NCBI GenBank assembly: GCA_013388455.1
Contig: JACAFF010000040.1
Span: 129,990 to 181,718, forward strand
From: Nitrospirota bacterium
GTDB lineage: Bacteria; Nitrospirota; Thermodesulfovibrionia; Thermodesulfovibrionales; SM23-35
DNA: 51,729 nt
Direction of reading: 5' to 3'
Positions 48,378 to 51,613 of the stretch are shown one piece after another. The stretch's first letter is position 1; each line of letters starts with the position of its first letter. Below the pieces are notes generated by a model that saw only the letters and a program-made list of their open reading frames with translations, was not told where the DNA came from and searched no databases. The translations under genes were made by a program, and so were the position numbers.

Positions 48378-48412
48378 TTAACCCGAAAAATGCAATTAGA
48401 ATAATGCATATG
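48378..48412 (-). repeat. Fragment of TTAA-bounded repeat (right end)
   Basis: A 35-bp copy of the right end, in inverse orientation, begins TTAACCCGAAAAATGCAATT and ends AATAATGCATATG. It matches copy A's right end at all but two positions. It overlaps the 3' end of the beta-propeller gene and contains its stop codon. Confidence 0.75.
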
Positions 48413-49445
48413 ACCATACTACCTTTTCTTGCTTTGGATCCCACTCTATTACACGCCCCTTTACTGGCTCAGAGACAATGATATTGCCATTTTCAAGCAG
48501 GACAGCCGTATGTGGACAGCTTGGAGATTGCGATTTCGCACCTTGTTTCCGTAGTTCAGTGGCACCCGTTTTCCATTTCGTCAAACCTTTTTCATCGACA
48601 GCAATCAAGAGGTTCCAGTTGCGCATACTTATCAATGTAAGCCCATCATTAAGCCGCTGGACTGAGTTTACATGTACCCAGTCATTGGCGTCTTTGCTTC
48701 GAATATCCTTATATTTGCTATTGGCATACTCGGTTTTTGCATACCATTTCCAGACTATCTCTCCCTTAGGATTCACTTCAAATACTTGAGGGTCTTTATA
48801 TGGAAATTCTGAAGCTTTTTCCGAACTCGCGCTTGCAATCAATGTATTGCCGTTTTGGAGCCTGTCAATATCGTGATCAACCAGTTTATTCTTGTATGAC
48901 CAGACTACCTTATGGTAACGGTTGATTTCGTAAATACCGTCATGGGCGCTAAGAACGAGTACATTATCGTTAGGCAACAATTCTACATCGCCTAAAAGCT
49001 TGGCATTCGGAAGCGAATGTTGCCATACAACTTTACCTTCAAGATTAGCTTCGACTATGCATTTACGATTACTGTCAGCAAATACTATATTGCCAGGCCA
49101 TGCTCGTTTCTTATCATATTTCTTAATAATCAAATCAGGGTAAGTTTGTTTCTCATTATTTTCAATATTTATATTCTTAGATTTGCGCGTTTTTCGAAAG
49201 TTTTGACTCTCTTCTTTGCTCACATATCTATCTCCGTCAGTATTCATAGCAGTAAACATTTTATTCAGTCCTTCGAATTCATGTTTGGATATTTTGTCAT
49301 CGCCATTTTTATCCATTCTAGCAACCCGTTGTGGCTGGGCATATAATGTTATAACTGCAACCAGAAGGTATCCTAATATGAATAAGCACATAGTAAAACT
49401 AAAAACCTTACGTATCATTTGAATAACAATATTAGTCAATTTCAT
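48396..49445 (-). pseudogene. Exported EF-hand / PQQ-like beta-propeller protein, 3'-truncated
   Basis: The 349-aa frame starts with a signal or anchor segment (~12-36). Two EF-hand loops follow, DKNGDDKISKHE and NTDGDRYVSKEE (~45-80). Then comes a beta-propeller of repeated blades (VVWQHSLPNA, NGNTLIASA, GEIVWKW, NGNIIVSEP) as in arylsulfotransferase-like/PQQ-repeat proteins. It ends abruptly at EKVVWSYALF in the middle of a blade. The last three residues and the stop are encoded by the repeat fragment at 48378-48412, so the true C-terminus appears to be lost. GAGGAGG supports the start. A shorter functional protein cannot be excluded. Confidence 0.65.
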
Positions 49446-49913
49446 TTTTACCTCCTCAATCTTAATATAGTATTGTCAAAAGTTTTTTCTCAAAAAGACT
49501 TAAAACACTTAATTATCAATGCATTGTTTATTTTTTGCTTGCCTCCCTTCTTGTCCCTCGCCAGCGGGGAATACTATAAAGATCCTTTGTTCCCCGCCAA
49601 AGGGGGATACTGTAAAGATATCTTTTGTTAGGGGATAATATTGTAACCTCCCTCTTAGTTTGTTTTCATATCCCGTACTTTTTCCCATGAAACTTTTGAT
49701 ATTACCCTTAATATTTTATTTCGCCGCTATGAATAGCGGCGATGGTATATCATGACCTAAAAGGGGGGCTGCGGTTGGCGGAAATGCACGAAGGGCATTT
49801 CTTGCGAAGCCGATGACCGCTTATCGGTTGCGGATAAAAGAAGTTGCCGAAGGCAATTGAGGGAAATCTTTGATTTCCCTTTTATCCGCTGTTATATGAA
49901 GTCGGTTCCTTCC
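49446..49913. other. 468-bp gene-free region with tandem repeats and strong hairpins
   Basis: No gene is seen. It holds a tandem pair at 49555-49630, a perfect hairpin at 49721-49742 (TCGCCGCTAT/ATAGCGGCGA), a hairpin at 49771-49820 (GCGGT…GAAATGC/GCATTTC…ACCGC), and the nested element at 49815-49927. The hairpins are more GC-rich than their surroundings. Confidence 0.65.
49555..49630. repeat. Two-unit imperfect tandem repeat (~38 bp each)
   Basis: Unit 1 (49555-49591) and unit 2 (49592-49630) share the pattern CGCCA..GGGG.ATACT.TAAAGAT…TTTGTT. They resemble the short GC-clustered repeats near 33.6 kb only in composition. Confidence 0.7.
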
Positions 49914-49927
49914 CTATATAAGCGGTC
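49815..49927. repeat. Nested inverted-repeat structure with three-way junction
   Basis: An outer perfect 10-bp stem, GACCGCTTAT (49815-49824) with ATAAGCGGTC (49918-49927), encloses an 11-bp stem GCGGATAAAAG/CTTTTATCCGC (49830-49840 with 49879-49889). Inside are two arms, TTGCC/GGCAA (49844-49856) and GGGAAATC/GATTTCCC (49861-49879, one base shared). It overlaps the end of the lipoprotein gene. It could be a structured RNA, a terminator or a mobile hairpin. Confidence 0.6.
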
Positions 49928-50437
49928 CTTTCAAAATCCGAATATCATCAATCCATGCAGTCCCTCTACCATTGATAACCAGATTAAGTTTCACATTGTC
50001 TGGATTCTCTCCTTTTTTCAGAAAGAACAGTGTTTCCTCTGTTGTCCAATCCGTGGTGCCAGTTAGGGGTGTCTGTAATCCTCGGGAGAAAAACTCGCCT
50101 TTGCCAGAAAAATGGCACCACATCTCAAATATACTTGACCTTCTACATCTTTTGTGCGAACCTTAGCTTGGTAAATTAGACGCGCATCCTCAATGTCTAT
50201 ATCGTCTGTCTCAAATAACCGTACCACTATGGGTTCACTCGCTGTAATTTTCAATGAGCCATTGCCGTCACTTGAAATTTCCTTATCAATCTGTACCCCA
50301 GACTGCGTGATGAGTCCCTCAAGGTTTTCAATGGGAAACCTTTTTAGCTCACTTACTTGTTTTGATTGTTTAGAACAACCGACTAAGGCAAAAACCATCG
50401 CCACACATATACATAAAGCCAATTTTCTCATATCCAT
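49914..50437 (-). pseudogene. Lipoprotein with frameshift, unknown function
   Basis: The upstream frame (50437-~50125) encodes MDMRKLALCICVAMVFALVGCSK, a lipoprotein signal with lipobox LVGC. About 80 residues follow before it changes to a nonsense tail after GQVYL. A second frame (~50123-49914) continues with MWCHFSGKGEFFS…DNVKLNLVINGRGTAWIDDIRILKGPL. Its end pattern G.AWIDDI.I is typical of jelly-roll carbohydrate-binding modules. One missing G near 50125 restores a single ~173-aa protein. AAGGAGG supports the start. A sequencing error would make it intact. It is flanked by hairpin-rich DNA. Confidence 0.7.
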
Positions 50438-50514
50438 GCTTCTTGCCTCCTTTCTTGTATTATTTTGGGTGAGTGCCGTAAGGCACGAACCTTTTATGCT
50501 GTGTTAGGCGAAGT

Positions 50515-51081
50515 TCAATGAAGTATAAAGTCAATATCCAATACGGATATTTCTCCGTCGCCATCTATATCTCCCTTAGTCAGAGTTTGGGCACATACAT
50601 GACAATTGTAAATTGTTTTCAAATATTTCTTCTCCAATAATGGTGGAATGAGATCATAAAATTTTCTTTCATTTGGATACTTTTCCTTGAAGAATTCATA
50701 GAGCCCCTTCGTACCTTTTGAAGAATTACACTGTCTACATGCCCACACTTGGTTATGAATACCTTGGATTTTGTCGCATGTTCTACATTCAAGTTTAATT
50801 TGCAAAGACCTTGGAACAATATGTTCTTTCTGAATATCACTTTCAGCCCCACAGTATATACACTTCTTTTCAGAATCAACCAACTGCCAGTCTTCATGAG
50901 TAATTTCTGACCATGATTTAGTGCCATTTTTCAATTCAAGGAACGTCTTTTTTATAAAACCATAATATCGTTGTTTCTTTGCTTCCTTTCCGTCAGATGT
51001 AGAAAAGGCTCTCCTAGCGATAATTTTTGCATATTGGTAATATATGAGGTTTCGGATTGTCTTTACATCTTTATCAGGCAT
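50515..51081 (-). CDS. HNH endonuclease with C-terminal EF-hand/dockerin-like loop
   Basis: The 188-aa protein has an HNH core at ~73-130. It has CIYCGAES, KEHIVPRS (the catalytic His), a second CRTC pair, and WACRQCNSSKGTKG, the last holding the Asn and zinc-binding Cys pair. The N-terminal ~60 residues are helical and basic. The last ~20 residues form a perfect EF-hand calcium loop, DIDGDGEISVLD, like a single dockerin repeat, preceded by CHVCAQTL. HNH proteins nick or cut DNA, and the role of the calcium loop is unknown. AGAGG lies before the ATG. It is oriented like the lipoprotein and separated from it by a small hairpin. Confidence 0.75.
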   Translation of the reverse strand: MPDKDVKTIRNLIYYQYAKIIARRAFSTSDGKEAKKQRYYGFIKKTFLELKNGTKSWSEITHEDWQLVDSEKKCIYCGAESDIQKEHIVPRSLQIKLECRTCDKIQGIHNQVWACRQCNSSKGTKGLYEFFKEKYPNERKFYDLIPPLLEKKYLKTIYNCHVCAQTLTKGDIDGDGEISVLDIDFILH

Positions 51082-51150
51082 TTTTCAAAAACCTCTTTTA
51101 TCATTTGAATTTCGCTTATCTCCTTCACAGACGACAATGTCGCCTTTTCT

Positions 51151-51613
51151 TCAATTTTGGAAGTATAGACGACTATGTCGGATATCCCTGATATCCCTCC
51201 CTATGTACTCCTTTCTTTTAATTATTTGATCCAACGGATTTTTAATCCTTGCGAAGTCTCTTGTACTTATATGTGTATATATTTCAGTGGTTTTTGAACT
51301 CTTGTGACCTAATAGTTCTTGAATATATCTTAGGTCTATTCCATTCTCTAAAAGATGTGTTGCGAATGAATGCTTGAGACTATGGATGGTTACATCTTTC
51401 CTTATCCCTGCCCGATTACAAGACATCTCAAATACACTTTGAGCAGTCCTTATGGTAATATTTCTTTCGCTATTTGGCTCAGGGAACAACCATTTCACCG
51501 GCTTATATTCTCTCCAATATTTCACTCAAGGTCTTTAAAGCAGAATAAACAAGTATTAGAATTGCCTTGTGCTTCAAATTATCCACTGAATCAAGTATTT
51601 TTGCAACTTCTTG
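51151..51613 (-). pseudogene. Broken tyrosine recombinase (integrase)
   Basis: The open frame from GTG 51525 to 51151 (124 aa) is the C-terminal catalytic half of a Xer/phage-type integrase. It has [18 protein letters not shown], the LLGHKSS box, and IYTHIS with the nucleophilic Tyr. The HxxR position reads HSLK, so Lys replaces the usual Arg. A TGA lies directly before the GTG. In another frame further upstream (~51613-51526) QEVAKILDSVDNLKHKAIL and [10 protein letters not shown] continue the same protein. There a segment between YSA and LKTL is missing and one extra A shifts the frame. The N-terminal domain is gone, replaced by an IS. Confidence 0.75.

Follow-up and report, generated by a model that had tools for sequence, protein, structure and literature searches.

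A small HNH-family protein encoded in the window (the whole 51,729-nucleotide stretch of Nitrospirota DNA that was analyzed) carries at its C terminus what is, as judged from its sequence, a genuine EF-hand-type loop and a putative metal site. The preliminary description of this DNA had singled out the combination of such a loop with an HNH protein, and the combination proved to be genuine, conserved, and unusual. On balance, we consider it probable that the protein is a cytoplasmic HNH endonuclease, likely to contain zinc, that serves as an accessory of restriction and repair loci and has a tail acting as a structural metal clip.

Results

An HNH core and a C-terminal EF-hand-type loop

Translation of positions 50515 to 51081 on the minus strand gives a protein of 188 amino acids that ends in ...TLTKGDIDGDGEISVLDIDFILH* and has no apparent signal peptide. 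The span given in the preliminary description, 50515-50640, holds only the last 42 residues of this protein. The features of the gene and its product are as follows, with the basis of each assignment in parentheses.

50515..51081, minus strand: HNH-family protein, 188 aa (ORF and translation; homologues in many phyla)
50722..50862, minus strand: HNH core with zinc knuckle, residues 74-120 (near-invariant residues in relatives; Pfam matches below cutoff; Foldseek)
50776..50787, minus strand: C99-x2-C102, first half of a putative second zinc site, in a clade-specific insertion (Cys conservation)
50590..50643, minus strand: helix 147-164 with C160-x2-C163, putative second half of the second zinc site (AlphaFold; Cys conservation)
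50536..50571, minus strand: EF-hand or Dx[DN]xDG loop, residues 171-182, DIDGDGEISVLD (pattern test; ligand conservation; pN/pS)
50521..50544, minus strand: predicted C-terminal helix, residues 180-187 (AlphaFold, pLDDT about 89)

The HNH signature of the window protein reads CxxC...EHIVP...HN...CxxCN. In the alignment, the H87/N110/N119 triad and the C74/C77/C115/C118 knuckle are conserved in nearly all relatives, and the triad is kept in all clades, with one sequence (L085, H87R) as the sole exception. The window protein scores below the Pfam cutoffs for HNH_5 (23.0 bits versus 27.5) and HNH (18.5 bits versus 21.4). The family profile matched the solved structures of a Geobacter HNH nickase (4h9d, 9e-6) and AcCas9 (1e-5), and the top Foldseek matches were Cas9 HNH domains (E value of about 1e-3). 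Matches in the structure libraries covered the HNH core only, with Z near 5 or less and the tail not placed. The HNH identity assigned in the preliminary description is borne out by the conserved triad and knuckle and by the 4h9d match; from its H/N/N residues and profile match, we assign the protein to the HNH endonuclease superfamily.

Of the MPD clade members shown in the alignment, all 11 whose loop is intact and 4 whose loop is degenerate carry C99-x2-C102, which is absent from the Omnitrophota and Cys-tail clades. Together with C160/C163, this pair forms a second CxxC-CxxC set that marks the clade of the window protein and suggests a second zinc site adjoining the loop.

Loop positions 1, 3, 5, and 12 are D171, D173, D175, and D182, position 6 is G176, and position 8 is I178, which agrees with the ligand assignment made at the outset. 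The C terminus, DIDGDGEISVLDI, matches the PROSITE PS00018-type EF-hand pattern at residues 171-183. This is the only match in the protein, in which no paired EF-hand motif was found. When the protein was shuffled, 15 of 20,000 shuffles matched this pattern and 4 of 20,000 matched a stricter EF-hand pattern.

Among the reading frames of at least 60 aa in the window, one other PS00018-type match was found, at about position 49313 on the minus strand, in a propeller gene. This gene (48396-49445, minus strand) encodes an ASST-type propeller with an apparent N-terminal signal or anchor and two EF-hand-like loops before the propeller. The preliminary description had drawn attention to these EF-hands alongside the HNH tail; they are indeed present, but no link to the HNH gene was found, and the propeller is apparently exported.

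An AlphaFold model made from 26 input sequences had a pLDDT of 83.5 overall and about 88-91 over the last 40 residues. It orders the tail as helix 147-164, loop, and helix 180-187, with about six residues between the end of the first helix and D171. As modeled, the EF-hand is noncanonical in that the E-side helix stops about six residues before loop position 1.

Distribution and evolution of the tail

A genome scan with a three-sequence profile yielded 29 loci, and searches of two additional phyla, with ∼390 genomes each, added more. Loops of the D[IL][DN]xDG type occur in full-length relatives from the Neomarinimicrobiota, Planctomycetota, Ignavibacteriota, Spirochaetota, Omnitrophota, and Elusimicrobiota, so that with the window genome counted in, at least seven phyla bear the loop. 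A loop-bearing relative from the Neomarinimicrobiota has 86% identity, and an Omnitrophota subfamily in which the loop is also present is 39-44% identical to the window protein. The loop is intact (ligands 1, 3, 5, and 12) in 16 of 38 rows of the alignment, comprising 11 of 17 in the MPD clade and 5 of 6 in the Omnitrophota clade. Position 12 is Asp, never Glu, in every intact loop. In a comparison of nine members of the window's clade with intact loops, the tail had a pN/pS of 0.31 and the core one of 0.25; these values are rough because many pairs were saturated at synonymous sites. By this measure, the tail appears to evolve under purifying selection.

The preliminary description had set its proposal against a tail that was absent from all homologues and had arisen by a recent frame change; the tail was found in homologues from many phyla. 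That chance or a recent frame change made the tail in this genome only has next to no probability. The locus does border relict mobile elements (an integrase remnant and an IS3-type end), as might be expected of such an origin, but the 16 loop-bearing rows, their spread over phyla, and the purifying selection refute it. We also considered and rejected a recent origin of the tail by fusion with, or copying from, another gene of this genome, where the tail has no second match.

Relatives in phages were not found in viral_contigs scans or by tblastn of a phage collection at the sensitivities used. A plasmid search returned one relative, which is haloarchaeal and tail-less.

On a tree built from the core alone (38 rows, rooted at the midpoint only), loop presence undergoes five changes of state. 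Losses are placed in a Treponema/Bacteroidota/Fervidobacterium contig group (GTLDSNCGGKxLSVLDLD) and in L077, L085, and L072, the last of which has a long extension instead of the tail. The loop thus appears to have been lost several times and would be dispensable in some settings. In the degenerate group from restriction-modification (RM) operons, ligands 1, 3, and 5 are gone, whereas the HNH triad and the terminal VLDLD remain. In L085, a decayed copy, the loop and the catalytic His are both gone; the HNH triad is intact in the other loop-less members.

A Cys-rich tail marks one sister clade of 13 rows (support 100/100). This tail contains five Cys and ends in LTCFCLES, and the last Cys of its CFC aligns with loop position 12 (D182). 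The AlphaFold model of a Cys-tail sister is likewise predicted to end in a short helix. Because the Cys tail lies at the same place, with its last Cys at position 12 and a short terminal helix again predicted, one structural metal site may have been exchanged for another.

Several copies of the gene are rearranged. L025 (1348-1644) and L029 (4001-4306) are in-frame, internally deleted copies of 98 and 101 aa with different junctions; both keep the N terminus and the tail without the HNH core. These deleted copies could possibly be regulators or, as easily, decayed genes. At L040 (2842-4111), two N-terminal HNH-gene fragments lie on either side of an apparent RES-domain toxin-like gene, and the second of them runs into a tail fragment in a different frame.

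Gene neighborhoods and possible mobility

Judging from its gene neighbors, the HNH family is probably an accessory of restriction and DNA-repair loci. In L022, the gene lies in a type I restriction operon, hsdM-ORF6N-HNH-hsdS-Abi_C-hsdR; the loop has been lost from this type I RM group, whose operon partner is the clearest. In L090, HNH is the third gene of a Mod-Res-HNH operon and overlaps Res by 20 bases, the type III assignment of Mod and Res having been made by reading the sequences; Pfam gave no match for a truncated Res. Other HNH genes adjoin an MvaI/BcnI endonuclease remnant and an N6/N4 methylase (L012) or an OLD-like nuclease (L015) or follow an ORF6N gene (L076) or a DUF1016 gene (L083). 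In two Omnitrophota genomes (L086, 4384-5548, and L087, 4721-5885), the EF-tailed HNH gene overlaps Ogg, an 8-oxoguanine glycosylase gene, and an HhH-GPD (Nth-like) repair gene comes next, in a pyrimidine-biosynthesis-like gene row. The window HNH gene is flanked by an integrase remnant and a lipoprotein-like ORF, with no restriction or repair partner in the window.

Also in L090 (5016-7346), an HNH domain is fused to a long extension of nearly 600 residues, which had no Pfam match in the part tested.

Two short features lie at the borders of the window gene:

51082..51112, minus strand: conserved leader GAAATTCAAATGAT...AAGAGG...ATG, ribosome-binding region (blastn to L012 and L036)
50503..50509, minus strand: GCCTAAC, attC-like core site just past the stop codon (homology to L012 ends adjacent, at 50510)

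The blastn homology to L012 and L036 extends to 51112-51118, and in L036 (3880-4000), the leader is directly preceded by GTTAGGC, an attC-like core site. The attC fold at the 3′ side of the HNH gene was not significant (z = −0.9). The attC-like sites at the borders of its conserved DNA suggest that the HNH gene may have moved as an integron-type cassette.

The integrase remnant (51151-51525, minus strand), upstream of the HNH gene, is the C-terminal part of a tyrosine recombinase that matches positions 237-314 of the TIGR02249 integron integrase model. Its upstream part is missing, and an apparent IS3-type transposase end lies between the remnant and the contig end. The lipoprotein-like ORF (49914-50437, minus strand) is apparently frameshifted into two overlapping frames. 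A strong single-strand hairpin (z = −6.9) is found at about 49829-49920, and a nearby stretch of 88 bases (49630-49717) has complete or partial copies at three further sites in the genome.

Discussion

Role of the loop

We propose that a small HNH endonuclease moves from one bacterium to another as an accessory to restriction and DNA-repair loci and that its C-terminal Dx[DN]xDG loop would be permanently occupied by a single divalent cation, either Ca2+ or Mg2+. This ion would fasten the short terminal helix onto helix 147-164 and the CxxC region, and the clipped helix would stabilize the fold, acting as neither a docking module nor a calcium sensor. The presence and identity of a bound metal, a structural role for it, and DNA cleavage by the protein are points that we infer. 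A structural clip fits best because the loop is single, position 12 is Asp throughout, Cys is exchanged in at the same site, and the losses mostly spare the HNH residues. A single unpaired loop may be a weak metal binder. Dockerins bind Ca2+ with Asp at position 12, so both Mg2+ and Ca2+ are possible ligands of the loop.

The calcium control suggested in the preliminary description would have the loop empty at resting cytosolic Ca2+ and filled when Ca2+ rises, for example, upon envelope damage or phage entry, so that the terminal helix moves and the HNH site is switched on or off. An EF-type loop in an apparently cytoplasmic protein, its restriction and defense contexts, and the selection acting on the loop are consistent with a switch of this kind. 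Yet the motif is single and unpaired, its repeated loss has mostly left the HNH triad intact, and a Cys-rich tail can replace it. Moreover, all intact members have Asp at position 12, and Asp rather than Glu at this EF-hand position is reported to lower Ca2+ affinity and to shift selectivity to Mg2+ (PMC7465447). Calcium control is therefore less likely than a structural role, and we regard such a switch as quite unlikely. A widespread restriction or repair accessory nuclease gated by intracellular Ca2+ or Mg2+ through a single C-terminal EF loop appears to us similarly improbable.

Docking, in which the loop and terminal helix would form a half-dockerin-like patch that binds HsdS, Res, the ORF6N protein, or Ogg, draws on the DNA-acting partners encoded by close or overlapping genes and on an F-hand sequence that dockerins also use. 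These partners vary by locus, however, none is encoded in the window, and the type I RM group, where the operon partner is clearest, is without the loop. The dockerin-type docking raised in the preliminary description is contradicted by the single repeat where two would be needed, by a Pfam Dockerin_1 match that covers 14 of 57 model positions and scores 12.1 bits against a cutoff of 22.9, and by the genome itself (99.4% complete), in which Cohesin had no match at an E value of ≤1; the genome also contains no dockerins above the cutoff. We consider docking very unlikely. The acidic loop might instead bind no metal and serve as a helix cap and linker or in a charge role, its likeness to an EF-hand being convergent. 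The retention of VLD[IL]D in sequences that lack ligands 1, 3, and 5 would suit this explanation, as would the weak binding that single EF loops can show. But these three ligands are kept together in 16 rows of two clades and lost together in the degenerate group, and a chance PS00018 match is rare; a loop without metal thus seems unlikely. As for the choice between the structural clip and a switch, a loop that is kept across phyla, lost repeatedly, and swapped for a Cys tail offers a natural series in which to pursue it.

Comparison with known systems

The best profile and fold matches of the window protein are HNH endonucleases with a CxxC...CxxC knuckle (HNH_5/HNH, 4h9d, and the HNH domains of Cas9 and IscB), with which it has the HNH core and the H/N/N residues in common. 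It differs from them in having a helical region at its N terminus, an insertion with a second CxxC pair, and the C-terminal EF-type loop. HNH proteins of the PtuB (Septu) type matched weakly in a profile search (E value of 1e-4); the match spans the HNH core without reaching the tail, and no PtuA gene was found next to the HNH gene of the window. The repeated occurrence of the gene within restriction operons of types I and III, together with its overlap with Ogg, points, on the evidence of gene order, to an unstudied accessory nuclease of restriction and repair.

With type I dockerins, the window protein shares the loop and F-helix sequence (GDIDGDGEISVLDIDFIL). Type I dockerins have two repeats, whereas the window protein has one, is apparently cytoplasmic, and comes from a genome without a cohesin. 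Text searches of open-access papers turned up no HNH protein with an EF-hand or dockerin, which is weak evidence of novelty.

Rigden and colleagues (PMC3123361) surveyed calcium-loop proteins that have this same Dx[DN]xDG linear motif, and the loop is known to have been inserted into unrelated folds in the course of evolution. The word "nuclease" is absent from the main text of that survey. Most Dx[DN]xDG loops belong to extracellular proteins. Inside cells, only EF-hands and calcium blades are numerous, and other intracellular contexts are few (PMC3123361). A loop of this kind on an apparently cytoplasmic HNH family extends these sparse intracellular contexts.
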